Below are positions 1-17,776 of a stretch of 64,000 nucleotides of DNA, piece after piece (the first letter of the stretch is position 1; each line of letters opens with the position of its first letter). The DNA lies in contig NZ_AP022565.1 of assembly GCF_010727325.1 (NCBI RefSeq), positions 4,464,001 to 4,528,000 on the forward strand. Direction: 5' to 3'. The stretch is from Mycolicibacterium alvei. Its GTDB lineage: Bacteria > Actinomycetota > Actinomycetes > Mycobacteriales > Mycobacteriaceae. The position numbers were made by a program, and so were the translations under genes. The notes under the pieces were generated by a model. It saw nothing but the letters and a program-made list of their open reading frames with translations, did no database searches and was not told the DNA's origin.

Positions 1-2322
1 GAAGGGGATCTCCGGCGGCATCGGTTTCAGGTCGGCCAGGGCCGCGGTCAGGTCGCTGACGATCGGCTCAACCTGCGGTGAGTGGAAGGCGACATCGACC
101 GGGATCTCACGGGCCATCACCCCGCGTTGTTCCCAGTCGGCGACGAGCTCGCGAACCGTCTGTGTGGCACCGGCCACGACGGTGGATTCCGGCGAGGCCA
201 CGACCGCCACCACGACATCGGTGATTCCGCGTCCGGTCAGCTCTGAAAGTACCTGCTTGGCAGGAAGTTCCACCGCGGCGGTGGCACCTGTCCCGGCGAT
301 CCGGGACATGAGTTGCGACCGCCGGCAGATCAGGCGTAGTCCGTCTTCCAGCGAAAGCGCGCCCGCGACAACGGCTGCCGCGCCCTCACCCAGGGAGTGG
401 CCGATGACCGCAGCGGGGTGCACCCCGTATGCCCGCATGGTGGCGGCCAAGGCGATCTGCATGGTGAACAGCGTCGGCTGCAGCCGGTCCTGACCGCTGA
501 CGGTCTGTGCCGCCGACATCGCCTCGGTCACCGAGAATCCCGACTCGGCGGCGATGATCGGCTCGGCCCGGGCCACGGTAGCGGCGAACACCGGTTCGTT
601 GGCCAGCAGCTCGGCACCCATTGCCGCCCACTGCGAACCCTGGCCGGAGAACACCCAGACCGGACCTCGGTCGTTGCGCCCGACAGCGGCTTGATGGGGG
701 TCATCGCCGTCAGCGATCTCACGTAACGCCGCAGTGAGCTCCGCGCGGTTGCGCGCGTCGACGGCGGTGCGTACCGACCGGTGCACGCGTCGGCGCGCCA
801 GGGTGTATGCCAGATCAGGCAGGGTGACATCACCGTGTGTCTGTACCCACTCGGCCAGCCGGGCGGCCGTGTGACGCAGCTCTTCTGGTGACGTGGATGA
901 CAGCGGGAACAACAGTGGTGCCGCGTCCGACTCGGGTGGTACGGCTGCCGTGGTGGGTTCCGGCGCCGGCACGGGCGCCTGCTCCACGATGGCGTGGACG
1001 TTGGTCCCCGACAACCCGTATGACGAGACCGCCGCCCGTCGGGGATGGTTCCCGTTGGTGCACCACGCGGTGGTCTCCTGGGGCACAAACAGATTGGTCG
1101 CGATCTGAGCGAGCTGATCGGGTAGGCGGGTGAAGTGGAGATTTTGTGGAACCACGCCGTGGTGCACTGCGAGAACGGCCTTCATCAGGCCGAGCGCGCC
1201 AGAGGCAGCCTGGGCATGCCCCATGTTGGTCTTGACCGACGTGAGGGCGCAGCGTCCGTCGACGCCGTACACCTTCGCCAGGCTGGAGTACTCGATCGGG
1301 TCCCCGACCGGGGTGCCCGTCCCGTGCGCCTCCACCATGCCGACCGTGTCGGCATCGATACCGGCTGCGGCCAACGCCATTCGATACACCGCGGTCTGTG
1401 CGGCATCCGACGGCGTGGCGATGTTCACGGTGTGACCGTCCTGATTGGCGGCCGTGCCGCGGATCACGGCCAGGATCCGATCACCGTCGCGCACTGCGTC
1501 GGTCAGCCGCTTGAGCAGCACCACAGCGCAACCCTCGCCCGAAACGAATCCGTCGGCCGCGGTATCGAACGCGTGGCAGCGCCCGGTGGGGGACAGCATT
1601 CCCTCGGCTGATCCGGAGGCGAACTTCCGCGGGTCCAACACCAGGGTGACGCCGCCGGCGAAGGCCAGGTCACTCTCGCCCTCGTGCAGGCTGCGGCAGG
1701 CCAGGTGCACCGCGGTCAGGCCCGAGGAACAGGCTGTGTCCACCGTGAGTGCGGGGCCGTGTACCCCCAGCGCGTAGGCGACCCGTCCGGATGCCAGGCT
1801 GAAGCTGGTGCCGCTGAACCCGTACGCGGCCTCCAGGGCTTCGGCATCAGCAGCCAACATCACGTAGTCGCCGTGCGTCAGCCCGATGAAGACGCCGGTG
1901 CTGGTGTCCGTCAGGTCGTCGCGGGAGACGCCGGCATGTTCCATGGCCTCCCACGACGTCTCGAGCAGGATCCGATGCTGAGGGTCGATCGCGGTGGCTT
2001 CGCGCTCGTTGATCTCGAAGAACTCCGAGTCGAAGCCGGCAACATCATCGATGAACGCACCCCACTTCGACACCGATCGTCCGGGAACCCCGGGTTCCGG
2101 GTCGTAGTATTCGTCCGCATCCCAGCGGTCGGGCGGCACCTCGGTGACCAGGTCATCGCCGCGGATCAACGCCTCCCACAGTTGTTCTGGGGAGTCGATG
2201 CCGCCGGGAAGCCGGCAGGACATCCCGATGACGGCGACCGGGGTGACCGGTCTGCCGGGCCGCGGGTTCGGAGACAAGCCGGGATCGGAATCCGGCAACC
2301 TGTCGTTTGCATTCTCGGACAT
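1..2322 (-). CDS. Type I polyketide synthase, N-terminal part (KS-AT), truncated by window edge
   Basis: Translation from the ATG at 2322 (upstream GGAGGAGGG) stays open to base 1, giving the first 774 residues of a larger enzyme. A ketosynthase starts near residue 28 and carries DTACSSGL (active-site Cys about 198), EAHGTGT and [12 protein letters not shown]. An acyltransferase follows, with GQGSQW and GHSLGE (active Ser about 643). Near the edge it reads VAFHS, where F before the His is the malonyl-type signature; methylmalonyl-type Mas/Pks2 enzymes have S there. The enzyme would extend a starter acyl chain, probably supplied as acyl-AMP by the divergent FAAL next door. DH, ER, KR and ACP domains, if present, lie outside the window. 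Family is certain; product unknown. Confidence 0.93.
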
Positions 2323-2652
2323 AGCCAAGTGCCCTCCTCCCGAGGCCGATTGGCAGGTCTGGCCGCCACCGGTTCGGATGCCCGGCGCCGGTGCGGTGGG
2401 CCGACGCAGCTACGCCGGTGTTCTCCCACCGCCCTTGCCGGCGCAGGGTCCTCAGCGGGCGGTCACAATCACCAACGCTAGATTCGCTGGGGTGAGTTGT
2501 CCGACGATCTGAGCAATCGATCGGATGAATACGAACGATTGCAAATAGTTTGTGTGACCGCACGACTAAATGACATAACTGTGACGCACACGCGGCGCGG
2601 TTGAAGTTTGCCGGGCTTTCTCGATATGCGGCCGCAGTCGCGGCGTTACCCT
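2323..2652. promoter_or_regulatory. Divergent PKS / FAAL intergenic region with an inverted repeat
   Basis: About 330 bases separate the divergent PKS and FAAL starts, with no convincing gene. A relatively AT-rich patch (about 2510-2590) holds an inverted repeat: GCAATCG at 2513-2519 and CGATTGC at 2536-2542, with a 16-base spacer. The arm centres are about two helical turns apart, which suits a dimeric regulator. Promoters for both genes probably lie here, but none can be placed exactly. No KstR-type box was seen. Confidence 0.45.
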
Positions 2653-4401
2653 ATGCCCGTGGGTGATACGTCCATTCTGACGTTGCTGAACGAGCGTGCC
2701 GGACTTCAAGGTGATGACACTGCGGTCACTTTTATTGATTATGAAAATAGTTGGGACGGTGTTCCGGAGAGCCTGACGTTCGCGCAGTTGTATCGGCGGA
2801 CGCGGAATCTGGCGCGATATCTCGAACAATTCGGGGCACCGGGTGACCGCGCGCTGATCCTGGCTCCGCAGGGGATCGCGTACATCGTGGCTTTTCTCGG
2901 CGCGATGCAGGCGGGGCGCATCGCGGTGCCGTTGTCGGTGCCGTTGGGGGGTGCCAGCGATGACCGCGTCGGATCGGTGTTGCAGAATGCGCTGCCGACC
3001 GTCATCCTCACCACCTCTGCGGTCTCGGGAGTGGTGGCCGAGTACGTCTCGTCTCAGCCCGGCGGATCGACTCCGTCGATCGTCGAGGTCGACCTGCTGG
3101 ATCTCGACGCCTCGCCGGGGCGCTACGGCACCGGGATCCACACCCCGCCCGACACCGCATATTTGCAGTACACGTCGGGATCCACCCGGAACCCGGCCGG
3201 GGTGATGATGTCGCACGAGAACCTGATGGCCAATTTCCGGCAACTGTTGCCCGGCTATTTCTCCGCCTCCGGAAACGTCATCCCGCCCGGCGCAACCATT
3301 GTGTCGTGGCTGCCGTTCTATCACGACATGGGTTTGTACCTCGGAGTTTGCGCACCGGTGCTGGCCGGGGTTCCCGCTGTGCTCACCAGTCCGATGGCGT
3401 TCCTGCAACGACCGGCCCGGTGGATCCAATTGTTGGCAAACAATTCTCGTGCCTATACCGCCGCGCCGAACTTCGCCTTCGAATTGGCTGTGCGAAAAAC
3501 ATCGGACGATGACCTGGCCGGCCGTGACCTCTCCGATGTGCTGGTCATCATCACCGGCGCCGAACGGGTGCATCCGGCAACGCTCGAGCGCTTCACCGAT
3601 CGCTTTGCGAAGTTCAAGCTGAACCCGGCGGCGATCCGCCCGTCGTACGGGCTCGCGGAGGCGACCGTCTACGTGGCGACCAACCCACCCGATCGGCCAC
3701 CGACGGTAGTGCGTTTCGAATCCGACAAGCTGACCGCCGGTGTGGCGCAGCGTAGCGAGAACAGTAGCGGCACACCCCTGGTCAGCTACCAGATGTCGCA
3801 GTCGCCGATGATCCGCATCGTTGACTCGGAGACCCGCACGGAGTGTCCGCCCGGTTCCGTCGGCGAGATCTGGGTGTACGGCGACAACGTCGCGACCGGC
3901 TATTGGGGCAGACCCGCAGAGAGCGCGGCGACGTTCGGCGGTCAACTCGTATCGCCCTCGGACGGCACTCCCGAGGGGCCCTGGCTGCGCACCGGGGACC
4001 TCGGCTTCGACTCTGACGGTGAGCTGTATGTGGTCGGCCGCATCAAAGATCTGCTGATCGTGTACGGGCGCAACCATTCTCCCGACGACATCGAGGCGAC
4101 GATCCAGGAGATCACCCGGGGTCGCTGCGCGGCCATCGCGGTTCCGGACGGCCGCACCGAGAAGCTCGTCGTCATCATCGAAGTTAGAAAGCAGGGCGAC
4201 TCTCACGAGGAGACGATGGACAAACTCTCGGCCGTCAAGCGAGAAGTGACCTCGGCGATATCCCACTCGCACAGCCTCGGTGTCGCCGATCTCGTTCCGG
4301 TGTCCCCGGGTTCGATCCCGATCACCACGAGCGGCAAAGTCCGGCGATCGGCCTGTGTCGAGCATTATCGGCAGGGCCAGTTCGCCCGGTTGGACGCGTA
4401 G
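2653..4401 (+). CDS. Fatty acyl-AMP ligase (FAAL), FadD23-like
   Basis: A 582-residue adenylate-forming enzyme whose sequence follows M. tuberculosis FadD23 closely from memory ([20 protein letters not shown] loop, [11 protein letters not shown] near the C-terminus). [13 protein letters not shown] near residue 174 is the ATP-binding P-loop. The [19 protein letters not shown] segment is typical of mycobacterial FAALs, which pass acyl-AMP to a PKS acyl carrier instead of making acyl-CoA. The start was set at the ATG giving MPVGDTSIL, where FadD23-type proteins begin; an in-frame ATG upstream at 2608 is less likely. It is divergent from the PKS, so it probably primes that enzyme. Confidence 0.9.
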
Positions 4402-4424
4402 CCGACAAAGCGGGGCGGGGGAGA

Positions 4425-5204
4425 ATGAATCTGGCCTACGAAGACCATGGCCACGGTGAGGCGGTGCTGTTCATTGCCGGCCAAGGCGGTCTCGGACGCA
4501 CCTGGGATCTTCACCAGGTGCCTGCATTCCGTGCGGCCGGGTACCGCGTCATCACGTTCGACAACCGGGGAGTCGGTGCCACAGCGGATACCGATACGTT
4601 CACCACTGCGACGATGGTGGCCGACACCGCCGAGTTGATCGAGCGGCTGGGCGTTGCACCCGTGCGGCTCGTCGGTGTCTCGATGGGCGCCTACATCGCC
4701 CAGGAGCTGATGCTGTCCCGGCCGGACCTGGTGAGCCAGGCGGCGTTGATGGCCACGCGGGGCCGCAACGACCGGGCGCGCGAGTTCTTTCGGCAGGCGG
4801 AATTGGAACTTGCCGGGTCAGATGTGCGGGTCCCGCCTGCCTACGAGGCGAAACTGCGTTTGCTGGAAAACTTTTCGCCAAGGACTCTGAATGACGACGG
4901 CTCGGTTCGGGACTGGATCGATACCTTCACGATGTGGCCGACCAAGCCGACCAGGGGGATTCGCGCTCAGTATGACGTCGCTCCGGAGCGGGATCGGCGG
5001 CCCGCGTACCGGTCGATCTCCACACCGGTGCTGGTGATCGGTTTCGCCGATGACCTCGTGATGCCTCCGCACCTCGGCGCAGAGGTGGCAGCGGCCCTTC
5101 CGAACGGCCGCTACCTCGAAATCGCCGACACGGGTCACCTGGGATTCCTCGAACGGCCGAATTCGGTGAATTCGGCAATCCTGGAGTTCTTCGCCGATGC
5201 CTGA
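4425..5204 (+). CDS. Alpha/beta hydrolase
   Basis: A 259-residue alpha/beta-hydrolase fold protein with nucleophile elbow GVSMGA (Ser86), an acidic residue in FADD (Asp209 or 210) and catalytic His238 in TGHLG. The oxyanion region GQGGLGRTW sits near residue 19. It has no signal peptide, so it is probably cytosolic. It starts 23 bases after the FAAL stop behind a G-rich Shine-Dalgarno, so it is very likely co-transcribed. Placed between a FAAL and lipid exporters, it could release or trans-esterify the PKS product, as a type II thioesterase or esterase. That role is inference; the fold does not fix the substrate. Confidence 0.85.
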   Translation: MNLAYEDHGHGEAVLFIAGQGGLGRTWDLHQVPAFRAAGYRVITFDNRGVGATADTDTFTTATMVADTAELIERLGVAPVRLVGVSMGAYIAQELMLSRPDLVSQAALMATRGRNDRAREFFRQAELELAGSDVRVPPAYEAKLRLLENFSPRTLNDDGSVRDWIDTFTMWPTKPTRGIRAQYDVAPERDRRPAYRSISTPVLVIGFADDLVMPPHLGAEVAAALPNGRYLEIADTGHLGFLERPNSVNSAILEFFADA

Positions 5205-5560
5205 GATCCAGTGTATGTCCCACGGCCACAACGACGTTGGCGGTCAGGCCGGACCGTCGGTACCGGAAACGCCGGACCGGGCCCGACGAACAGCCGATTC
5301 CCAGCGGAAGTCCAGTCGGCGCCGACCGGTGGCGACGGTAGCTTCCGTTCCGCATCGTGCACCCGCAGTTTGCATTACGATCCCGTATCACGTTGGCAAT
5401 AGACCGATGTGGAGGTCGCCTGAATGCTGTACTTGTCGGGTTCGGATTCTGCCCGAATCACAGCGTGTTCGCCGTGACCCCTCCGCACGGCTGGTTCGGG
5501 GCGCCACCGGCAACCGAATCGGCGGGTTAGACACGGATGGGGGTTCGTGATTTGGGGGTT
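5205..5560. other. Intergenic region upstream of mmpS
   Basis: About 355 bases without a supported gene. Short open frames here lack codon bias and a recognisable product. A self-complementary GTCGGCGCCGAC lies near 5310. An A/T-richer patch around 5370-5405 contains TTGCAT and could hold an mmpS promoter, but this is not firm. No operator of a known class was seen. Confidence 0.35.
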
Positions 5561-5980
5561 ATGAAGCGGCTGTGGATTCCGCTGCTCATTCTTGTCGTCC
5601 TCGGCGCCGGCGGATTCACGGTGCTGCGGCTGCACGGTGTCTTCGGTTCCGAGATCCGCCCCGCGTATTCCGACACCGAAACCCAGGAACGCAAGCCCTA
5701 CAACCCGAAGCAGCTGGTGTACGAGGTGTTCGGTTCACCGGGCACGACGGCGAGCATCAGCTATTTCGATGTTGACGCCGAGCCGCAGTTCATTGAAAGC
5801 GCAAGCTTGCCATGGACGTTGAAGTTCCCGATGTCGGAGACGACGGCGATGGTCAACATCATCGCGCAGGGCACTGGTAGCAACATCGGCTGCCGTATCA
5901 CCGTCGATGGCAAGGTCAAGTCGGAGCGGACCGGGCAAGGGACGAGCGCGTTCACCTTCTGCTCGCTGAAGGCCGCATGA
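5561..5980 (+). CDS. mmpS: MmpS family membrane protein (MmpS4-like)
   Basis: A 139-residue protein starting MKRLWIP behind TGGGGG. One N-terminal membrane helix (residues about 4-22) is followed by a periplasmic domain with [18 protein letters not shown] and [15 protein letters not shown], both matching MmpS4 from memory. An in-frame ATG at 5537 would add eight residues but breaks alignment with the family start. MmpS proteins are small periplasmic partners of MmpL lipid or siderophore transporters. The 3' end overlaps the following mmpL by four bases (ATGA), so translation is coupled. Confidence 0.93.
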
Positions 5981-8865
5981 GCAGCCAACCCACCGCCGAC
6001 GAGCCGCCGTTCATCCCCCGGATGATCCGCAAACTGGCGATACCGATCATCCTGCTGTGGTTGGTGATCACCTACATCCTCGGTGCGGCCGTCCCTCCGT
6101 TGGAGCAGGTGGAAAAAGAGCGCTCGGTATCGATGATCCCCAACGATGCGCCGTCATTCGAGGCGATGCAGCGCATGGGCCAGAGCTTTCGAGAATCCAA
6201 CTCGAACAGTGTGGCGATGATCGTCCTGGAGGGGCAGCAACCGCTCGGCGACGATGCTCACCGCTATTACGACGACTTGATCCGTCAGTTGAAAGCCGAC
6301 ACGGCGCACGTGCAGCACATCCAGGATTTCTGGGGCGACCCGCTGACCGCGGGTGCGGCGCAAAGCGCCGACAACAAGGCCGTCTACGTGCAGATGAGCC
6401 TCACCGGTGACCTCGGACAGGCCGCCGCGACCGAGTCCTTGGAATCCGTCCGCAACATCGTGAAGAACACCCCGCCACCGCCGGGGGTGGAAGCCTACGT
6501 CACCGGGCCGGTCGCCCTTGTTTCCGATCTGAGCCAGAGCGGCAACAAGACCGTGCTCCTGGTCACCGGCCTGAGTCTCACGGTCATCCTCGTGATGCTG
6601 CTCTTCTTCTTCCGTTCGATCGTCACTGCACTTCTGCTGCTGCTACTGGTCGGGGTTCAGCTCCAGGTGGCCAGAGGAGTGGTCGCATTCCTGGGTGATC
6701 AAGGGGTGATCGGGCTTTCCACCTACGCCGTGAACCTGTTGGTCACGCTCGGAATCGCCGCGGGGACCGACTACGGCATTTTCTTCGTCGGCCGGTATCA
6801 GGAGGCACGTCAGGCCGGCGAGGAGCGGGAGCAGGCCTTCTATACGACCTATCGCAGCGTCGCCAAGGTGGTCCTGGCCTCGGGTCTGACCATTGCCGGA
6901 GCGGTGTTCTGCCTGAGTTTCACCCGGCTGCCGTATTTCCAGACCCTGGGCATCCCGTGTGCGTTGGGCATGGTCGTGGCCGTTGCGGTCGCCCTGACGC
7001 TGATTCCGGCGGTCCTTGCACTCGGCGGACGCTTCGGATTGTTCGAACCCAAACGCAAGATCATCGTGCGGCGTTGGCGGCGCATCGGTACCGCGATCGT
7101 CCGTTGGCCCGCACCGATTCTGGTCACGGCATTGGCCGCCTCGCTCATCGGGTTGCTGGCGCTGCCGAGGTACCAGCCCGGTTACAACGACCAGAATTAT
7201 CTGCCGAAAGACATTCCGGCCAATGAAGGGTATGCGGCGGCCGACCGGCACTTTCCGCAGTCGCTGATGACGGCTCCCGACATCCTGTATATCGAGGCCG
7301 ACCACGACCTGCGCAACCCGGCCGATTTCCTTGTGCTGAACAAACTGGCCAAGGGGGTTCTCGCGGTCCCGGGCATCGCGAGGGTACAGGGGGCCACCCG
7401 TCCTGAGGGAACCCCGCTGAAACACACGACGATCCCGTTCATCATGAGTTCTGGCAATGCAAGTCAGTTGCAGCTCTTGCCGTTTCAGAAGGCTCGGATG
7501 AACGATCTGGTCACCCAGGCTGAGGAGCTGCAGAAGACCATCACCACGATGCAGCGGATGTTCGGCTTGATGCAGCAGCTCGCCACGACGACGAATGCGA
7601 TGGTCACGAAAACCCATGAGCTGGAGGATGTCACCAACGAATTGCGTGACCACATGGCAGACTTCGACGATTTCTTCAGGCCTGTTCGAAATTATCTGTA
7701 CTGGGAACCGCACTGTTTCGACATCCCGGTCTGTTGGGCGCTGAAATCGCTGTTCGAAGCGCTTGACGGCGTTGATCGGTTGACATCGACGATGCACCAG
7801 CTCGTGGGAAACCTCGATCAGCTGAATCTGCTCATGCCGCAGATGATCGCCCAGTTCCCGTCCATGATCGCGACGATGCAGAGCACCCGGACCATGATGC
7901 TGACGATGCACAGCACCATGTCGGGAATCTTCGGTCAGATGGAGGAAAACGGCGACAACGCCACAGCCATGGGCAAAGCGTTCGACAACGCCCAGAACGA
8001 CGACTCCTTCTATCTTCCTCCCGAAGTTTTCGACAACGAGGACTTCAAAAAGGTCCTGGATGTATTCGTCTCGCCAGACGGCAGGGCGGCGCGGATGCTC
8101 ATCACGCAGCGGGGCGATCCGGCGACACCCGAGGGCATCGCGCGGGTCGAACCGTTACGAACAGCGGCCGAGGAAGCGCTCAAGGGAACACCGCTGGAAA
8201 GCGCCAAGATCTATCTCACCGGCAGCTCGGCGATGGCAAAGGACCAGGTGGATGGTTCCACCTACGATCTCCTGATCGCGGGAGTCGCGGCGCTCTGCCT
8301 CATTTTCATCATCATGTTGATCATGATCCGGAGCCTGGTGGCCGCTCTTGTCATCGTGGGTACGGTTGCGCTTTCGCTGGGTGCGGCATTCGGGCTGTCG
8401 GTGCTCATCTGGCAGCACATTCTCGGAATCCAATTGAACTGGCTCGTGCTCGCGATTTCGCTGATCATTCTTTTGGCAGTCGGTTCCGATTACAACCTGC
8501 TCCTCGTATCGCGCATGAAAGAAGAGATAAAAGCAGGAATCAACACCGGCATCATCCGCGCGATGGCCGGCAGCGGCAAGGTGGTCACGGCCGCCGGGCT
8601 GGTGTTCGCGTCCACCATGATGTCGATGCTTGCCAGCGACGTGCGCACGATCGGTCAGGTGGGGTCGACCATCGGTATCGGTCTGCTGTTCGACACCCTG
8701 ATCGTGCGCGCGTTCATGACGCCGTCGATCGCTGCGCTGTTGGGCCGCTGGTTCTGGTGGCCGCTGAGGGTCCGGCAGCGGCCCGCCAGTGCCCTGCTAC
8801 GGCCAACCGGCCCGCGCCCGCTGGTCCGGTCGCTCCTGCTTTTGCCGGATGAACGCGGCTCGTGA
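5977..8865 (+). CDS. mmpL: MmpL family RND lipid transporter, first of a tandem pair
   Basis: A 962-residue transporter of the RND superfamily with about twelve membrane helices. The N-terminal helix is followed by a large periplasmic loop; a helix bundle carries GTDYGIFF (Asp265-Tyr266); a second periplasmic loop contains the conserved [22 protein letters not shown] segment; a second bundle carries GSDYNLLL (Asp838-Tyr839). The two Asp-Tyr pairs are the proton-relay residues known in MmpL3. The sequence resembles MmpL4, which exports lipids or siderophores with MmpS4. It overlaps mmpS by four bases and precedes a close paralogue, the arrangement seen in mmpS4-mmpL4a-mmpL4b loci. Cargo is probably the product of the adjacent PKS (inference). 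Confidence 0.95.
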
Positions 8866-8896
8866 TGATGGTGTCCTTCCGCGTGAGGACAGCCGC

Positions 8897-11779
8897 ATGA
8901 GCGAGCAGTCGATGCACAGCGATCCGCCGTTCGTCGCGCGGATGATCTATCGGCTTGCGGCGCTGATCATTCTCGTCTGGCTGGTGGTCGTTGCGGTCCT
9001 GACCTTCGCTGTCCCTTCACTGGAGCAGGTCGGAAGGGACTACTCCGTATCACTGGTCCCCAGAGACGCCCCGTCGTTCCAGGCGATGCAGCGCATGGGC
9101 CGAAGCTTCCGGGAATCTGATTCCGACAGTGTGGCAATGGTCGTCCTGGAGGGGCAGCAGCCTCTCGGCGACGATGTGCACCGGTATTACGACGACCTGG
9201 TGCGGCAGCTGAAAGCCGATACGCAGCATGTACAGCATGTGCAGGATTACTGGGGGGACAAGCTCACCGCCTCCGGGGTGCAGAGTCAGGACAACAAGGC
9301 GGTCTACGTCCAACTGAATCTCGCGGGCAACCAGGGTGAGTCCCTGTCCACGGAATCGGTTGAGGCCGTCCGGGACATCGTTCAACGGTCGCAACTACCG
9401 GCCGGGGTCAAGGCTTACGTCACCGGCCCCGCCCCGCTCGCATCGGACATGAACCATGCCGGTGACAAATCCATCATCAAGATCACCGTAGTCACCCTCG
9501 TGGTGATCCTCACGATGCTGCTCTTCGTCTACCGTTCGGTGGTCACGGCAGTTCTTCTGCTGGTCATGGTGGGGATGCAGGTCCAGGTAGCGCGAGGTGT
9601 CGTCGCACTGCTCGGTGATCACCAGGTCATCGGGCTCTCGACGTTCGCCGTGAATCTGCTCGTATCGCTGGGGATCGCCGTCGGTACCGACTACGGCATC
9701 TTCTTCATCGGCCGGTATCAGGAGGCGCGGCAAGCCGGTGAGGAACGCGAGCAGGCGTTCTACACGACGTATCACAGCGTCGCGAAGGTGGTGCTGGCCT
9801 CGGGTCTGACGATTGCCGGCGCGATCTTCTGTCTGAGTTTCGCCCGGCTGCCGTACTTCCAGACCATGGGTGTTCCCACCGCGGTGGCCATGGTCGTCGC
9901 GGTGGCGGTGGCGCTGACGCTGATTCCAGCCGTGCTTGCCCTGGGCGGGCGCTTCGGTTTGTTCGAACCCAAACGCAAGATCATCGTCCGGCGCTGGCGG
10001 CGCCTCGGTACTGCGATCGTCCGCTGGCCGGCGCCCATCCTCGCCGCGGCAATGGTGGTGGCACTGATCGGCTTGTTGGCGCTCCCGGCGTACAAGACCA
10101 GTTACAACGACCGGTTGTATGTGCCCAGCAGCATTCCGGCAAATGTCGGATACGCCGCCGCCGAGCGGCACTTTCCCCAGTCGCGGATGACACCGGACAT
10201 TCTGTTGGTCGAGGCCGACCACGATATGCGTAACCCGTCGGATTTCCTGGTGCTGAACAAGCTGGCAAAAAGCGTATTTGCGGTGCCCGGGATTTCGAGG
10301 GTGCAGGGAATAACGCGTCCCGAGGGCACCCCGATCGACCGCACGTCAATTCCGTTCCTGCTCAGCATCCAGAGTGCAACTCAGGTGGAGCTGCTGCCGT
10401 TTCAGAAGAATCGGATGAATGACCTGGTCAAGCAGGCCGACGACATGTCGAAGATGATCGCGAACATGCAGCATCTCTACGCGGTGACACAGAAGCTCGT
10501 CACCACGACCCACAGCATGGTGAAGAACACCCACCAGATGGAGGATGTGCTGAAGGAGGTTCGGGACCACATTGCGGATTTCGATGACTTCTTCCGGCCG
10601 ATCCGTAATTACCTGTACTGGGAGCCGCATTGCTTTGACATCCCGTACTGCTGGGCCATGAGGTCTTTTTTCGACGCGATGGATGGCGTCGACGCGGTTG
10701 CGGACAAGACTCAAGACCTTGTTCGGAACCTCGACCAACTGGATGCGCTCATGCCGAAGATGGTTGCTCAGTTCCCCTCGATGATCGCCAGCATGCAGAT
10801 CATGCGGACCATGATGCTGACGATGCACAGCACCATGGCCGGAACGTTCGCCCTGATGGATGAGAACAGCAAGAACGCCGCCGTCATGGGACGGGCTTTC
10901 GACGCCGCGCAGAACGACGACTCGTTCTATCTGCCCCCAGAGGTTTTCGACAACGAGGACTTCAAACGCGCGATGAACCTGTTCTTCTCGCCCGACGGAA
11001 AGTCGGTGCGGTTGATCATCTCTCACCGCGGTGACCCCGCCACGCCGGAGGGCATCGCGCGAGTCGACAAGGTGGTCCGAGCCGCCGAGGAGGCCCTGAA
11101 GCTGACCCCGTTGGAGAGTGCCAAGATCTATATGGCGGGCACCGCGGCGACGTACCGGGACATGCGCGACGGGGCCACCTACGATCTGCTGCTCGCGGGA
11201 GTCGCCGCGCTCTGTCTGATCTTCATCATCATGTTGATCGTGACGCGCAGTCTGGTGGCCGCATTGGTCATCGTTGGCACCGTTGCGCTTTCGCTGGGTG
11301 CGGCCTTCGGGTTGTCGGTGCTCATCTGGCAACACATCCTGGGCATATATCTGCACTGGCTCGTGCTCGCGATGTCCGTGATCATCCTGTTGGCGGTCGG
11401 CTCCGACTACAACCTGCTGCTGGTGTCCCGGATGAAAGAGGAACTCGGCGCCGGGATCAACACCGGCATCATCCGGGCCATGGGCGGTAGCGGCAAGGTG
11501 GTGACGGCCGCGGGTCTGGTGTTCGCGTTCACCATGATGTCGATGGTGGTCAGCGACCTCCGAATCATCGGTCAGGTGGGCTCCACCATCGGTATCGGCC
11601 TGCTGTTGGACACCCTGGTCGTGCGTGCCCTCATGACGCCGTCCATCGCCGCGCTGCTGGGCCGCTGGTTCTGGTGGCCGCAACGTGTCCGTCCCCGCCC
11701 TGCCAGCGTGCTCCTGCGTGAGACAGGACCCCGGCCACTGGTTCGCACATATTTGCTGAAGCAAGAAAATCCCGAGTAA
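8897..11779 (+). CDS. mmpL: MmpL family RND lipid transporter, second of a tandem pair
   Basis: A 960-residue paralogue of the preceding MmpL with the same topology, GTDYGIFF and GSDYNLLL proton-relay motifs, and long identical stretches such as [20 protein letters not shown]. The pair clearly arose by tandem duplication. The start was chosen at [12 protein letters not shown], which aligns with [12 protein letters not shown] of the first copy; an earlier in-frame start at 8789 would overlap that gene and is unlikely. The gap to the first copy is 31 bases, so this is one transcription unit. In characterised tandem MmpL4a/4b systems both copies are needed for export of one lipid; the same may hold here. 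Confidence 0.94.
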
Positions 11780-12193: not shown

Positions 12194-13099
12194 TCAGTAC
12201 GTCGGCTTGACCCCGCCCAGTTGGCTGGTCACCGCGTCGGCCGTCGCCACCAACGCTCGGGCCCGATCGGCGATCTCCTTGTCCGTCAAGGCCGTTCCGA
12301 TGTGCAGTGACGCGGCCATGACCTGACGCTGATAGTGGTCGAACACCGGCGCGGAGATGACGCTGATGTCATGCGGCGCTCGGCCGCCGGGTCCCTCGTC
12401 GCGCAGATACACCCGCTCGCCGATATCGGATACCAACTCGCTCAGGAGCGCGCGCAGTTCGTCGGGCAGATTGGTCGACATCCCCGCCATCAGCGCATAG
12501 AGCCTGCGGCCGCCCGGTGTCAGTCGTTCCACCAGATATCCGTCGGCGCGGCAGCTTTCGATCACCCGGTGCAGTCGGGCGGATTCGGTACGCAGCGGAA
12601 TCGTCGGCACCTTGGCCAGCCATGCCCGCAGGGCGTCGTCATCCCACAGCACGAACATCAGACCGACGGGAGGTGCGAACGGATAGCTCTGCCCGGCCCG
12701 CACACCGGCGTCACGGCCGGGTGGGCCGACAACCTCCAGCACGGTGATCCGATCGTCGACCACGGCGGTCAGGCCCGCCGAGGTGTCGAAAGCGGCTGAC
12801 AGCGCGTGTAACTCGGCTCGGGCCGCCGGGTTGACGCGCATCGACTCCTGAGCCGCGTGGCCGAGCGAGATCAGGCTCGGTCCGAGTCGGTACGTCTTGT
12901 CGGTGCTGTCGCGGATCAGGTAGCCCGAATCGGTGAGTGTGCTGAGGATTCCCAGGCACGTCGGCTTGCTCAGCCCGACCCGCCGGGTGAGCTCGGACAG
13001 TCCGAACCGCTGCTGTGGATGGCGGGACAGGAAATCCAGGATGGCCACCACCCGGGCGGTGGGCGGTGAGGCGCGGCCGGCCGGCTCGTCGTCTGGCAT
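12194..13099 (-). CDS. IclR family transcriptional regulator
   Basis: A 301-residue regulator. The N-terminal winged helix (residues about 15-75) has LSELTRRVGLSKPTCLGILSTL, as in IclR proteins. The C-terminal effector domain follows (about 85-270), including VGLMFVLW. The ATG at 13099 has GGAGGT directly upstream, so longer in-frame starts were set aside. The gene diverges from the DUF1214-SDR-sulfotransferase operon, and a perfect KstR box lies between them, so it may itself be sterol-inducible and act on that operon or its substrate pathway. It is convergent with the TB8.4-like gene. The ligand is unknown. Confidence 0.9.
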   Translation of the reverse strand: MPDDEPAGRASPPTARVVAILDFLSRHPQQRFGLSELTRRVGLSKPTCLGILSTLTDSGYLIRDSTDKTYRLGPSLISLGHAAQESMRVNPAARAELHALSAAFDTSAGLTAVVDDRITVLEVVGPPGRDAGVRAGQSYPFAPPVGLMFVLWDDDALRAWLAKVPTIPLRTESARLHRVIESCRADGYLVERLTPGGRRLYALMAGMSTNLPDELRALLSELVSDIGERVYLRDEGPGGRAPHDISVISAPVFDHYQRQVMAASLHIGTALTDKEIADRARALVATADAVTSQLGGVKPTY

Positions 13100-13135
13100 T
13101 GGACCTCCTGGACTAAAGCCGCCGTTGACTCGATT

Positions 13136-13149
13136 TAGAACGCGTTCTA
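13136..13149. promoter_or_regulatory. KstR operator (perfect palindrome)
   Basis: TAGAACGCGTTCTA matches the KstR consensus TnnAACnnGTTnnA at every fixed base and is fully palindromic. It lies 36 bases upstream of the iclR start and 60 bases upstream of the DUF1214 gene, so it could control both directions. Confidence 0.88.
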
Positions 13150-13209
13150 GTGTCAGGTAGGAAACTCTACCACTGCGGTTCAATATTGGACCGAGAGAGC
13201 AGATGCCGG

Positions 13210-14337
13210 ATGTACTCACAGCCGTTGACAGACGCCATCGCCGAGGCCGAACACCTGGTGGCCACGGCCCCCTTCATCGAATCCGAGGCGGACCTGCTCG
13301 AAGGTCTGCAATACCTGGCCGGGTGTATCGCGGCGTGCACGCATGTCGCGTTCGACTACGACCGCGACCACCCGTTCCTGCACAGCGGGACCGGACCGTT
13401 CACCAAGATGGGCCTGGACAACCCCGACACCATGTATTTCGGGACCCGGGTCCAACCCGGCCACGAGTACGTCGTGACCGGACGCCGCGGCACCACCACC
13501 GACGTCAGCTTCCAACTGCTCGGCGGGGAGTACACCGACGAGAACGTTCCCGACAGTGACACCGCATTCGACGATCGCAAGCTCGACATCGCCGCCGACG
13601 GCACCTTCGAGTGGCGGTTCACCCCGGCTGCGCCGTCGCAGCTGGTGATCCGCGAGGTCTACAACGACTGGTCGGCGCAGCGCGGTACCTTCGCGATCTC
13701 GCGTACCGACACCGTCGGCACGGCGCCGGCGCCGCTGACCCGCGAACTCATCGAGAAGCGTTACGCCACTGCGGGTAAGCAACTCGTGCAGCGGGTCAAG
13801 ACCTGGTTGCAGTTCCCGAAGTGGTTCTACGACAACCTGCCGGTCAACACCTTGACCGCACCGCGCCTGACCCCCGGCGGGCTGGCCACCCAGTACTCGT
13901 CGGTCGGGCATTACGACATGACACCGGACCAGGCGATGATAATCACCCTGCCGGTGTCGGATGCGCCCTACCTGGGCTTCCAGCTGGGCAGCCTCTGGTA
14001 CATCTCGCTGGATTACATCAACCATCAGACCTCACTGAACGGTGCACAGGCACAGGCGGATCCGGACGGCAAGATCCGGATCGTGGTGTCGGAGAACAGT
14101 CCCGGTGTCACCAACTGGTGCGAGACGTTGGGCCACGCCAAGGGGTACCTGCAGTTCCGCTGGCAGCGGGTCTCGCGTGAGTTGAGCGCCGAGGACGGTC
14201 CGACCCTGGAGTTGGTGGACCTCGGTTCGGTGGCCGAGAAGCTGCCGTACTACGAGAGCAACAAGATTTCCGACGATGATTGGCGGGCGCGGATTGCGCT
14301 GCGTCAGAAACTTATTGGCGAAAGGATGGTGGGCTGA
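13210..14337 (+). CDS. DUF1214-domain protein, Rv3531c homologue, unknown function
   Basis: A 375-residue protein that corresponds to M. tuberculosis Rv3531c by order and length. The N-terminal half is not recognised. The C-terminal third (about 245-365) looks like DUF1214: GHYDMTPDQAMIITLPV, SLDYINHQTSLNGAQA, then VTNWCETLGHAKG. The start at MYSQPLTDAI was preferred over an upstream in-frame start at 13150 because that would run into the KstR box. It has no signal peptide or membrane helix. It heads an operon with an SDR (3-base gap), a sulfotransferase and an LLM oxidoreductase, behind a KstR box, so a sterol-related role is likely but undefined. Confidence 0.85.
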   Translation: MYSQPLTDAIAEAEHLVATAPFIESEADLLEGLQYLAGCIAACTHVAFDYDRDHPFLHSGTGPFTKMGLDNPDTMYFGTRVQPGHEYVVTGRRGTTTDVSFQLLGGEYTDENVPDSDTAFDDRKLDIAADGTFEWRFTPAAPSQLVIREVYNDWSAQRGTFAISRTDTVGTAPAPLTRELIEKRYATAGKQLVQRVKTWLQFPKWFYDNLPVNTLTAPRLTPGGLATQYSSVGHYDMTPDQAMIITLPVSDAPYLGFQLGSLWYISLDYINHQTSLNGAQAQADPDGKIRIVVSENSPGVTNWCETLGHAKGYLQFRWQRVSRELSAEDGPTLELVDLGSVAEKLPYYESNKISDDDWRARIALRQKLIGERMVG

Positions 14338-14340
14338 CCG

Positions 14341-15123
14341 ATGGCCGGACTGCTCGATGGCAAGGTAGTGGTGATCAGCGGGGTCGGGCCCGGGCTCGGG
14401 ACGACGCTGGCCCGCCGTTGTGCGGAGAACGGTGCCGACCTCGTGTTGGCCGCCCGCACGGTGGAGCGGCTCGAGGATGTGGCGAAAGAGGTGAGGGGAC
14501 TGGGCCGCCGCGCGCTCGCGGTGGGCACCGACATCACCGACGAGGAACAGGTCGCCAACGTGGTGGCCCGCACGATGGAGGAGTACGGCAAGGCTGACGT
14601 GTTGATCAACAACGCGTTCCGGGTGCCGTCCATGAAGCCGTTCGCGAACACCACCTTCGAGCACATGCGCGATGCGATCGAGCTGACCGTGTTCGGCGCA
14701 CTGCGGATGACCCAGGGCTTCGCGCCGGCCCTGGAGGCTGCCAAAGGCTCAGTGGTGAACGTCAATTCGATGGTCGTGCGGCACTCGCAGGCCAAGTACG
14801 GCGCCTACAAGATGGCCAAGTCGGCGCTGCTGGCCATGTCGCAGACCCTGGCCACCGAGCTGGGGGAGAAGGGCATTCGGGTCAACTCGGTCATGCCCGG
14901 CTACATCTGGGGTGAAACTCTGGAGGGGTACTTCAACCATCAGGCGCAGAAGTACGGCACCACCGTGGACCAGATCTACAACGCGTCGGCGGCCGGGTCC
15001 GATCTCAAGCGGCTGCCGACCGAGGATGAGGTGGCCTCGGCGATCCTGTTCATGGCCAGCGATCTGTCCAGCGGCATCACCGGCCAATCCCTCGATGTGA
15101 ACTGCGGGGAGTACAAGGCATGA
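14341..15123 (+). CDS. Short-chain dehydrogenase/reductase, Rv3530c homologue
   Basis: A 260-residue classical SDR. The Rossmann glycine motif is GVGPGLG (residues 14-20), NNA at about 90-92 stands where NNAG is usual, and Ser143 with Tyr153-xxx-Lys157 forms the catalytic set. It should use NAD(P)H to reduce or oxidise a hydroxyl or keto group. It sits between the DUF1214 gene and the sulfotransferase (ATGA overlap with the latter) in a KstR-linked operon. A steroid or side-chain acyl intermediate is therefore a reasonable substrate guess; nothing in the sequence fixes it. Confidence 0.9.
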   Translation: MAGLLDGKVVVISGVGPGLGTTLARRCAENGADLVLAARTVERLEDVAKEVRGLGRRALAVGTDITDEEQVANVVARTMEEYGKADVLINNAFRVPSMKPFANTTFEHMRDAIELTVFGALRMTQGFAPALEAAKGSVVNVNSMVVRHSQAKYGAYKMAKSALLAMSQTLATELGEKGIRVNSVMPGYIWGETLEGYFNHQAQKYGTTVDQIYNASAAGSDLKRLPTEDEVASAILFMASDLSSGITGQSLDVNCGEYKA

Positions 15124-16268
15124 GTGCCCCACGCACAGATGTCGGCACCGTCGAGGATCTGCACGCGTCGGCGGTGAAGGCCTGTGGTCTGGATGACTTC
15201 GGTACCGACGATGACAATTACCTCGAAGCGCTCGGGGTGCTGCTGGATTCCTTTCAGCGCGACGCCGACCTGACTGAGCTCGGCAGCAAGATGCAGCGCT
15301 TCTTCACCCGAAATGCGTTGGTGGCCCGTCTCGTGTCGGAAGCTGCGTTCAAGCAGTATCCGCAGCACGTCGATGTGCCGATCGAGCGGCCGATCTTCGT
15401 CACCGGCCTGCCGCGCACCGGGACCACGGTGATCCACCGGTTGCTGGCGGCGGACCCGATGCATCAGGGTTTGGAGATGTGGCTGGCGGAGTTCCCGCAA
15501 CCGCGGCCGCCACGGGAAACCTGGTCGGACAACCCGGTTTTCAGCGCGCTCGACGCCCGGTTCAAGCAGGCGCACGAGGAGAACCCGGATTACACCGGGT
15601 TGCATTTCATGACCGCCGACGAGGTCGAGGAATGCTGGCAGTTGCTGCGCCAGTCGTTGCACTCGGTGTCCTACGAGACGCTGGCCCATGTGCCGACCTA
15701 CTCGCAGTGGCTGGCCCGTCAGGACTGGACCAAGTCCTACCGGCGGCACCGCAAGAACCTGCAGCTGATCGGCCTGAACGAGCCTGAAAAGCGTTGGGTG
15801 CTCAAGAACCCGAGTCACCTGTTCGCGCTCGATGCGCTGTTCGCCACGTATCCGGACGCGCTGGTCGTCCAGTGCCACCGCCCGGCGGAGACCATCATGG
15901 CCTCGATGTGCTCGCTGTCGCAGCAGACGACCGCCGGCTGGTCCAACACGTTCACCGGGAACGTGATCGGCGAAGACGCCATGGAAACCTGGTCGCGCGG
16001 CCTGGAACTGTTCGACACCGAGCGGGCCAAGCATGATCCGGCCCAGTTCTGCGACGTCGACTATTTCGAGTTCGTCAAGGATCCGGTCGGTGCGGTCGAA
16101 GGTATCTACCGCACGTTCGGGCTGGACTTCACCGACGCCGCGCGGCAGGCGATGGTCCAGAGTCATACCGCCAGCCAGCAGGGGCCCCGGGCACCGAAAC
16201 ACACCTATGCTCTGGCCGACTACGGGTTGACCCCCGAGGCAGTCAAGGAGCGGTTCAAAGGGCTGTAG
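15120..16268 (+). CDS. Sulfotransferase family protein, Rv3529c homologue
   Basis: A 382-residue sulfotransferase-fold protein. VTGLPRTGTT (about 94-103) is the 5'-phosphosulfate (PAPS) loop. A second motif, LKNPSHLFALDALF, and the 3'-phosphate-binding CHRPAETIMASMCSL region follow. It would transfer sulfate from PAPS to a hydroxyl. No signal peptide was seen. It overlaps the SDR by four bases and shares its KstR-linked promoter. A steroid, sterol-derived or lipid hydroxyl is a plausible acceptor; this is inference. Confidence 0.88.
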   Translation: MSAPRTDVGTVEDLHASAVKACGLDDFGTDDDNYLEALGVLLDSFQRDADLTELGSKMQRFFTRNALVARLVSEAAFKQYPQHVDVPIERPIFVTGLPRTGTTVIHRLLAADPMHQGLEMWLAEFPQPRPPRETWSDNPVFSALDARFKQAHEENPDYTGLHFMTADEVEECWQLLRQSLHSVSYETLAHVPTYSQWLARQDWTKSYRRHRKNLQLIGLNEPEKRWVLKNPSHLFALDALFATYPDALVVQCHRPAETIMASMCSLSQQTTAGWSNTFTGNVIGEDAMETWSRGLELFDTERAKHDPAQFCDVDYFEFVKDPVGAVEGIYRTFGLDFTDAARQAMVQSHTASQQGPRAPKHTYALADYGLTPEAVKERFKGL

Positions 16269-16275
16269 GGGGAAC

Positions 16276-17298
16276 ATGAAGGTCTATGTGGCGTTGGACC
16301 CGGGTAGGCCGCTGACCGCTACCGCTGATTACGCGCGGCGGGTCGAACGGTTGGGCTGTGACGGCCTGCACGTAGCCGAGACCGTGCACGACTCTCTGGC
16401 AGTCTCCCTGCTGGCTCTTGAGCACACGTCGCGAATCACCGTCCGCACCGCCATCACTCTGGCGTTCGTACGCAGCCCCACACTGACGGCGTACACGGCG
16501 TGGGATCTGTCGCTGTTCTCCGGCGGGCGGTTCGAACTGGGCCTGGGCACGCAGATCAAGCAGAACATCGAGGACCGCTACGGCATGCCGTGGAGCGATC
16601 CGATTACCCGGCTCCGGGACTATGTGGGTGCGCTCGACGCCCTGTTCGACGCGTTCCGCAATGGGGGCGCAGTGCATTACGAGAGCGAGAACTACCGGCT
16701 GACCAGGATGCAGCCCTACTTCAACCCCGGGCCGAGTGACGCCGTCCGGCCATCGATCTGGCTGGGTGCGGTCAACGCCGGAATGTGCGAACTCGCCGGG
16801 GAACTAGCTCGGGGAATCGTGACGCACTCGACCAACTCCGATCCGGACTACCTACGTGACGTGGTACGCCCGGCATTGGACCGGGGCGCCGGCACATCCG
16901 GAAGGGCAGACACGCCGCTCGTCATCGCATCGACGGCGATCGCGACCGGCAGGACCGATGAGGCCGTGGGCCGGGAGCGGGAACGGCAGCGCCGGATGTT
17001 GGCATTTCTGTATTCGACGCCCGCGTACGCCACCGGTCTGACCCGCCGCGGCCTTGCCGACCTCCCCGAGCGGCTCCGGTCGCTGGTCCGTACCGAGTTG
17101 TGGGACGAATTGCCTTCGGTGCTGACCGATTCGATTCTGGATGAGCTGTTGGTGTGTGGGCGCCATGACGAGCTACCCGAGATGCTGCGGGCCAGGTTCG
17201 ACGATATCGCCGACGGCATCGTGCTGCCGCCCCTGGGCGATGAGCGCGACGACGAGTCGCTGGGTGCGTGCGTGGCAGAACTGCAGCGGGCGAACTAG
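16276..17298 (+). CDS. LLM-class (F420-dependent type) oxidoreductase
   Basis: A 340-residue luciferase-like TIM-barrel protein (YARRVERLGCDGLHVAE near the start, LSLFSGGRFELGLGTQIKQN at about 80-99). Mycobacterial members commonly use coenzyme F420, but flavin use cannot be ruled out from sequence. It follows the sulfotransferase after seven bases and should be its last operon partner. Its stop overlaps the stop of the convergent Rv3527-like gene: both TAG codons share one CTAG at 17295-17298. Substrate unknown. Confidence 0.85.
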   Translation: MKVYVALDPGRPLTATADYARRVERLGCDGLHVAETVHDSLAVSLLALEHTSRITVRTAITLAFVRSPTLTAYTAWDLSLFSGGRFELGLGTQIKQNIEDRYGMPWSDPITRLRDYVGALDALFDAFRNGGAVHYESENYRLTRMQPYFNPGPSDAVRPSIWLGAVNAGMCELAGELARGIVTHSTNSDPDYLRDVVRPALDRGAGTSGRADTPLVIASTAIATGRTDEAVGRERERQRRMLAFLYSTPAYATGLTRRGLADLPERLRSLVRTELWDELPSVLTDSILDELLVCGRHDELPEMLRARFDDIADGIVLPPLGDERDDESLGACVAELQRAN

Positions 17299-17771
17299 CC
17301 GTCACCGGGGGAGGGCGCCGTGGACACTTCCTCCAGGCATCCCTCGGCGACCGCATGCCTGATGCTGTCGGTCAGCCGCGGGCAGGACCGGGCACGGGCC
17401 GGATCCCCACCGGTGGAACGGATCTCGTCAAATGTGGCACAGCGCTGCACCGCGTCGGTCGTCCACTGCACGGAGGTGTGTTCGGCGCTGAGCTTCTTCA
17501 CCTGCACCGACACATGGCAGAACCGGCAGTCCACGGACACCAGTCCCGAAGTCAGGTAACGCTCGCGGTCGCGCGCGCTGGCCTCTCGGACCGCGGCGGC
17601 CCGTTGTGGATCGGACGCGAAATCCGGTGCTTTGGCCCATGACCCGCTGGCCGCACCTGGGCTGCTGCCGGCGTGATGATCGTCGTCATCGTGCGCACCG
17701 TGCAGTAGCAGCATCGAGCGGGCCAGGTCGTCAACACTGGGCGCCTGGCTCCGCTCGTTGCGTTTGCTCAT
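17295..17771 (-). CDS. Rv3527-like protein of unknown function
   Basis: A 158-residue soluble protein starting MSKRNERSQ, five bases after the kshA stop and so co-transcribed with it; the same pairing occurs in M. tuberculosis (Rv3526-Rv3527). A low-complexity His/Asp run (HDDDDHHA near residue 26) precedes a domain with a DCRFC pair and two later cysteines (QRC, SCPRL). That could be a small metal or iron-sulfur site. It may support the Rieske oxygenase, but no function is established from sequence. Confidence 0.75.
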   Translation of the reverse strand: MSKRNERSQAPSVDDLARSMLLLHGAHDDDDHHAGSSPGAASGSWAKAPDFASDPQRAAAVREASARDRERYLTSGLVSVDCRFCHVSVQVKKLSAEHTSVQWTTDAVQRCATFDEIRSTGGDPARARSCPRLTDSIRHAVAEGCLEEVSTAPSPGDG

Positions 17772-17776
17772 CGGTC

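Follow-up and report, generated by a model that had tools for sequence, protein, structure and literature searches.

Acyl-supply and putative export genes of a 53-kb lipononapeptide locus, probably of the fortuitine type, in Mycolicibacterium alvei

Comparison with described surface-lipid loci

Fortuitine, reportedly described by Barber et al. in 1965 as an acyl-nonapeptide methyl ester of M. fortuitum, presumably has the structure acyl-Val-MeLeu-Val-Val-MeLeu-Thr(Ac)-Thr(Ac)-Ala-Pro-OMe. Publication of a fortuitine lipononapeptide in 1965 is documented by a title in the reference list of PMC3509699. Glycopeptidolipid (GPL) loci contain, according to PMC1885439, MbtH, two nonribosomal peptide synthetases (NRPSs), Gap, MmpS4, MmpL4a, MmpL4b and a pks/fadD23 pair, and the trehalose polyphleate (TPP) locus is given in PMC10465359 as pks-papA3-mmpL10-fadD23-pE. 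Here we analyze a stretch of 64,000 nucleotides of Mycolicibacterium alvei (the window, G000:C1:4464001-4528000; positions are those of the window unless marked G000:C1), which opens with genes for a polyketide synthase (PKS), a fatty acyl-AMP ligase (FAAL), an alpha/beta hydrolase, MmpS and two MmpL transporters. These genes belong to a lipononapeptide locus of 53 kb, of which they form the right-hand part, devoted to acyl supply and export; we consider it probable that this locus is of the fortuitine type, in a host related to M. peregrinum.

The other half was found within the 100 kb examined to the left of base 1 of the window, in a host genome of 6.02 Mb and two contigs (one a 304-kb plasmid). 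Two NRPS genes on the + strand span about -41.0 kb to -6.8 kb relative to base 1 and overlap by four bases: NRPS1 (7595 aa, G000:C1:4423019-4445806), with six modules and a terminal condensation (C) domain, and NRPS2 (3804 aa, G000:C1:4445803-4457217), with three modules and a thioesterase (TE). A family search matched MbtH (G000:C1:4422750-4422902, + strand) 116 bases upstream of NRPS1. On the - strand, HtpG (G000:C1:4457218-4459110) and the Sap/SfLAP protein (PF11139; G000:C1:4459120-4459938) occupy the interval from NRPS2 to the PKS, leaving intergenic gaps of 0, 9 and 57 bases. A sequence-only reading of the window had reported no NRPS, which holds for the window and fails for the locus; its suspicion that genes left of base 1 complete the locus was correct (Sap, HtpG, NRPS2, NRPS1 and MbtH), while the FAAL-PKS lipid it envisaged gives way to a lipopeptide of the NRPS type, with nine modules.

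Domain profiles derived from the synthetase's own sequence, with Pfam matches as seeds, resolved NRPS1 as C-A-T, C-A-MT-T, C-A-T, C-A-T, C-A-MT-T, C-A-T, C and NRPS2 as A-T, C-A-MT-T, C-A-MT-T-TE, where A is an adenylation, T a thiolation and MT an N-methyltransferase domain. The synthetase comprises nine modules in series and a release TE, with N-methyltransferases in modules 2, 5, 8 and 9, and core motifs are kept in 9/9 T, 9/9 C and 4/4 MT domains; domain scans detected no surplus C-type domain at the position of an epimerase. NRPS1 opens with a C domain and has no loading A-T, so that with the adjoining FAAL and PKS the set expected of a lipopeptide locus is present.

The Sap-type PF11139 protein is, we assume, of the same kind as Gap of GPL. 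Judged by PMC1885439, the arrangement resembles that of M. smegmatis in bringing MbtH, two NRPSs, MmpS, two MmpLs, PKS and FAAL into one region, which would suit a variant GPL locus whose surface lipid is of that kind but built on a different peptide and glycosylated by genes elsewhere. Such a variant seems improbable. That source describes GPL as a tripeptide-aminoalcohol, whereas nine modules ending in a thioesterase are found here; no glycosyltransferase or sugar methyltransferase was recognized from MbtH to the second MmpL or in the scanned flank genes (some flank open reading frames, ORFs, being unscanned); and the sole other site with at least two condensation domains, among the matches listed, lies at 76-95 kb and has a second MbtH next to it. 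That second NRPS locus with its own MbtH (G000:C1:76139-96538) is perhaps a siderophore locus.

The TPP locus, as presented in PMC10465359, is similar in its type of PKS and FAAL, but no PapA or PE gene was recognized in the M. alvei locus, which has the MmpS-MmpL-MmpL set and the NRPS instead, and the interval from Sap to the second MmpL gave no condensation/PapA match. A PapA-like gene next to an MmpL occurs separately in the host, at ~3.34 Mb. Assignment of the locus to GPL or TPP was rejected by gene set, in agreement with the sequence-only reading, which had proposed a distinct lipid family and suggested looking leftward for NRPS, papA or glycosyltransferase genes; only the first were encountered, with no PapA or glycosyltransferase recognized in the locus.

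Module codes and the fortuitine match

Comparisons across the genus covered 396 genomes, a selection from a larger set. The left flank was examined in 14 relatives whose FAAL is 73-76% identical to that of the host (G280, M. frederiksbergense AC80; G140, M. porcinum IP141460001; G230; G279; G251; G192; G261; G348; G296; G299; G272, M. septicum DSM 44393; G123; G238; G298); other genomes searched include G020 (M. peregrinum 852002-51209) and G118 (strain CBMA 247). For seven of the 14 (G348, G296, G299, G272, G123, G238 and G298) the sequence covers the left flank and stops short of the exporter block. G140 ends at a contig end and G296 at the end of the fetched stretch, G299 has a broken NRPS1 frame and G238 a broken NRPS2a, and the left flank of G298 contains a masked gap of 100 bases.

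A complete NRPS1 is present in 11 of the 14, and in all eleven it has five modules, carries MT in the second and the fifth, and ends in a C domain. In seven of the 14 (G230, G296, G299, G348, G123, G238 and M. septicum) the A-domain codes of NRPS1 and NRPS2a, read by hmmalign and from raw motifs, stand in the order of fortuitine, NRPS2a comprising two modules with Thr-like codes, one with DVWSVAAVY and one of DVWNVAG type, with TE in the six that are whole. The clearest case is G348, where codes 1-5 are DFWSMAGVY, DAFLVGAIW+MT, DFWSMAGVY, DFWSMAGVY and DAFLVGAIW+MT, and codes 6-9 are DYWSVGMVH, DYWSVGMVH, DVWSVAAVY and DVWNVAG(..)-TE. The resulting grouping {1,3,4}, {2,5}, {6,7}, {8}, {9} is exactly that of the fortuitine structure given above, and 3780 groupings of nine positions share these block sizes. 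Elsewhere the agreement is slightly looser: positions 2 and 5 are two letters apart in G230 and G296, positions 6 and 7 one letter apart in G123, and M. septicum and G238 have a different code 4. Across NRPS1 and NRPS2a, MT is confined to positions 2 and 5 in G230, G123, G348 and M. septicum. Codes 6 and 7, DYWS(V/I)GMVH, are one to two letters off DFWSVGMVHK, which is listed in PMC12283262 among Thr-activating codes, there also for chloro-Thr. The residue names used below would follow from the fortuitine match and, for Thr, additionally from these published codes.

The host departs from this pattern. Its codes 1-5 are DYWSMAGVY, DAFLVGAIW+MT, DYWSMAGVY, DFWTLGAIY and DAFLVGAIW+MT, and its codes 6-9 are DYWSVGMVH, DVFSVALVH, DAYVIVGIW+MT and DAGVIVGVW+MT; codes 1-6 are identical to those of G238 and codes 1-5 to those of M. 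septicum, and the last three differ. Like fortuitine, the host system has nine residues, N-methylation at 2 and 5, a Thr-like code 6 and the identities 1=3 and 2=5. Unlike fortuitine, it has methylating modules 8 and 9, so that N-methylation at 2 and 5 only is not its pattern, and other codes at 4 and 7, so that the grouping 1=3=4, 6=7 fails. Its TE motif (G000:C1:4456468-4457217) is GLCFGG, with Cys, as in Mycobacterium sp. DL99 and M. peregrinum DSM 43271 (3 of 24 synthetases with the motif found); the other 21 have GWS(F/L)GG, with Ser. DL99 represents a seven-module form with one X-MeY pair fewer. Given the methylating modules 8 and 9, the other codes 4 and 7 and the Cys in the TE motif, the host should make a congener of fortuitine and not fortuitine itself.

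Several observations weigh against the fortuitine assignment. No M. fortuitum genome was identified among the matches. The other seven of the 14 relatives are off the fortuitine pattern, most of them with MT in module 8. In the host, MT in modules 8 and 9 is unlike the presumed C-terminal Ala-Pro of fortuitine, so Ala-Pro is not expected in its product. Codes 8 and 9 of the relatives match no published Ala or Pro code that we found, and code 8 matches none of the published codes we compared. In PMC12283262, Gln239 with Val236 marks a large code group, taken as that of proline, and the position-9 code of the fortuitine-like relatives (DVWNVAG plus WY or YT, two readings disagreeing at the last two places) is without Gln239. 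Neither Thr O-acetylation nor methyl ester formation has a gene recognized in the locus.

The acyl chain can be judged from the PKS, an iterative type I enzyme of 2110 aa (KS-AT-DH-ER-KR-ACP; G000:C1:4459996-4466328, - strand) whose start lies at 1..2322 of the window, where it runs off the left edge. Ketosynthase (KS), acyltransferase (AT), ketoreductase (KR) and acyl carrier protein (ACP) motifs were found, the AT motifs being GHSLGE and VAFH, where the solved MAS-like Pks5 (5bp1) and MAS (9d2y) have GHSMGE and VASH. By the general rule for acyltransferases, AT motifs such as those of the M. alvei enzyme would favor malonyl-CoA and a straight chain, which fits the fortuitine structure given above; the extender is probably malonyl-CoA, and the product chain may be straight. 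Other features of the PKS are less favorable to this. It passes the NCBIfam Pks2 model NF041183 with 3659 bits (cut-off 2400), and the product of an enzyme named Pks2 is, we assume, methyl-branched. VAFH occurs in 15 of 17 PKSs compared, some of them from loci of other types, the two exceptions being G251 and G101. Against the fortuitine-type reading as a whole, the dehydratase (DH) histidine pattern is unmatched, the near form being HQIRSVAVLP.

On the observed gene content, module order, core motifs, synteny and code patterns a pathway may be proposed, in which substrates, acyl chain, release and export are what we infer. The FAAL would activate a long fatty acid and load it onto the iterative PKS, which would add a few reduced units, with malonyl-CoA as the probable extender, and so make a long straight chain; the first C domain of NRPS1 would then join this chain to residue 1. 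NRPS1 (modules 1-6 with C) and NRPS2 (7-9 with TE), with MbtH and perhaps with HtpG assisting their folding, would build a nine-residue peptide N-methylated at 2, 5, 8 and 9, tentatively acyl-Val-MeLeu-Val-x-MeLeu-Thr-x-Mex-Mex. After release by the thioesterase, Sap, MmpS and the two MmpLs, which the sequence-only reading had also taken as likely exporters and which the gene set suggests in that role, would move the lipopeptide to the cell surface.

That reading had spoken of an undescribed lipid. For the product class this goes too far, since the relatives show a module pattern that fits fortuitine; for the gene cluster it stands, no paper linking the genes to fortuitine or describing the locus having been found in the open literature, mostly by title and start of abstract and exclusive of subscription papers and preprints. 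A literature search by code strings likewise found nothing. The gene cluster thus appears undescribed and the product class known since 1965. The combination of NRPS with MmpL as such is not new, since for Rhodococcus and another actinobacterium PMC13206832 has predicted that NRPS clusters which include an MMPL transporter yield exported lipopeptides. If our interpretation is right, genes would be assigned to fortuitine, a mycobacterial lipopeptide named since 1965, and a mycobacterium without a recognizable GPL locus would be seen to carry another lipopeptide, variable in structure and served by an MmpS-MmpL-MmpL set of its own.

Synteny, a forked assembly line and HtpG

A scan of genomes with the end of NRPS2 found 14 loci, the best matches being M. 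peregrinum DSM 43271 (92%), DL99 (91%) and M. sp. GA-0227b (67%). Gene order across the block is conserved in M. peregrinum DSM 43271 and DL99, at ~90-97% for the proteins except NRPS1, and their FAAL is 92% identical to that of the host; GA-0227b matches in NRPS and DUF2505 only, within the 40 kb examined. The FAAL itself has a match at E<=1e-250 in 99 of the 396 genomes, among the matches listed, and 20 loci of FAAL relatives were picked and fetched for comparison of gene order. The PKS adjoins the FAAL in all 20, and hydrolase-MmpS-MmpL-MmpL follows the FAAL in six, all with a FAAL 74-76% identical; G261 is a seventh such locus, the FAAL being 74-76% identical in G280, G140, G230, G279, G251, G192 and G261.

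Since 14 of the 20 fetched loci (FAAL 66-72%) have the PKS-FAAL pair without MmpS-MmpL-MmpL, the PKS-FAAL-MmpL genes and the NRPS might be two independent pathways that happen to adjoin. We hold this to be very improbable. In every one of the nine related loci covered on both sides (M. peregrinum DSM 43271, DL99, G280, G140, G230, G279, G251, G192 and G261), NRPS occurs together with Sap-PKS-FAAL-hydrolase-MmpS-MmpL-MmpL; the gaps from NRPS2 to the PKS are those short ones given above; the initial C domain of the NRPS needs an acyl donor; and even among the 14 loci without the MmpL block NRPS sequence is nearby in at least eight. In three of these 14, HtpG is accompanied by a condensation-type gene, and in two it stands by itself or with a further FAAL. 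One locus combines the end of an NRPS with Sap, HtpG and a hydrolase, two show NRPS-like fragments at their edges, one shows neither, and in five NRPS, PKS and FAAL share a strand. The five one-strand loci are L044 and L048-L051 (G289, G282, G045, G130 and G246), with no MmpS-MmpL-MmpL within the 20 kb examined. Open NRPS-type frames of 10,000-16,000 aa with related thioesterases also occur, in G006 (16070 aa), G341 (13398 aa) and G273 (10449 aa).

The synthetase varies among relatives (nine versus seven modules, many code changes), and N-methylated lipopeptides are often bioactive, both of which would suit a secreted antibiotic or surfactant in place of a wall lipid. This is unlikely in our view, because the MmpL pair is conserved at 74-85% identity across seven relatives whose peptide codes vary, and because the export block consists of MmpS/MmpL and Sap, where the MmpL4a/b and Gap of GPL serve a surface lipid according to PMC1885439. 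For a surface lipopeptide of the fortuitine type, a similar exporter block combined with peptide codes that change by module loss and swapped ends offers a natural series for studying recognition by the MmpL pair.

A second NRPS2 is present in eight of the 14 relatives (G230, G251, G348, G296, G299, M. septicum, G123 and G238). In both NRPS2 genes the opening A domain is preceded by one type of leader (TADLSRRLSSMDFLDEDEH...), and a TE closes the gene where the frame is whole. NRPS1 ends in an orphan C domain; by script, in six genomes, the leaders of the first and second NRPS2 share 33/65 to 37/55 aligned residues. With one NRPS1 and two NRPS2 such a locus could make two surface lipononapeptides from a shared five-residue start, and both branches may be in use. 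That the family is a forked assembly line with HtpG as dedicated chaperone is a tentative proposal, to which we give somewhat less than even weight. The host has the one-branch form, with an NRPS1 one module longer and the Cys for Ser in the TE motif.

HtpG is the sole strong HSP90 match in the host genome, with one more weak match. The protein is crucial for colibactin according to PMC10924459, which also cites work on yersiniabactin and albicidin titled as requiring HtpG. Of the 70 non-host genomes with both positions listed, 30 have HtpG no more than 30 kb from the FAAL, at varying positions, as do 15 of the 19 with the closest FAALs; a random site would be expected within that distance in ~1 genome in 100, although the genomes are related and the counts do not translate into a probability. 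The other 28 of 98 further FAAL genomes were left out as having no HtpG entry, among them G245 and G251, which have HtpG beside the locus. HtpG is not obligatory to the locus, as it is common (283 of 396 genomes, among the matches listed) and lies elsewhere in G280 and G298, which have kept the locus. The arrangement makes a role of mycobacterial HtpG testable.

Genes of the window and the borders of the locus

The genes named in the sequence-only reading (PKS on the - strand; FAAL, hydrolase, MmpS, MmpL and MmpL on the + strand) are real, with clear family matches, and PKS and FAAL are divergent as it stated, their ORFs opening 279 bases apart on opposite strands. The FAAL (about 2626..4401) is FadD23/FadD28-like (PRK05850, 958.7 bits, cut-off 775), its best solved relative being FadD23 (765.6 bits). 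The alpha/beta hydrolase (4425..5204; Abhydrolase_1, 2.1e-24) has counterparts at the equivalent site in seven relatives (76-81% identity) and may act as a type II thioesterase or in acyl editing. The 332 bases that follow (5205..5536, + strand) possibly contain the leader and promoter of mmpS-mmpL-mmpL. MmpS, an accessory membrane protein (5537..5980; PF05423, 1.4e-55), is followed by the first MmpL (5977..8865; TIGR00833, 1100 bits) and the second (8897..11779; family match), which are ~72-73% identical when host copies are set against copies of two relatives. The long ORF of the second opens at 8789, and its start is likely the ATG at 8897.

Two further ORFs in this stretch were set aside. 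A 599-aa ORF over the FAAL (2566-4365, - strand) was rejected, with no Pfam or NCBIfam match. A 117-aa ORF (5197-5550) is probably spurious, because it has no family match and no coding constraint, differences to two relatives falling at all codon positions (14/10/18 and 21/16/27).

The left border genes encode DUF2505, a RecQ-like helicase, an HMGL-type aldolase, an acetaldehyde dehydrogenase, an FAA hydrolase and a 3-oxosteroid 1-dehydrogenase, and those on the right an IclR-like regulator, an SDR, a sulfotransferase, a luciferase-like and a KshA-type protein. An upstream 724-aa ORF (- strand) was rejected as a conserved gene of the locus, being antisense to the RecQ-like helicase gene. The IclR-like regulator (12194-13219) adjoins the second MmpL and is 72-93% identical in several relatives; a PHROGs scan of it was uninformative, and it is possibly a regulator of the locus or a mere border gene. 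Genes of steroid-degradation type flank both sides (14341-18922 and G000:C1:4414874-4419396), and we take them to resemble the kstD-hsa-kshA region of M. tuberculosis; from this likeness the locus appears to sit within a steroid-degradation island. In four of the 14 relatives the stretch covered stops short of a steroid dehydrogenase or shows none, and in the other ten, as in DL99, the dehydrogenase lies left of NRPS1.

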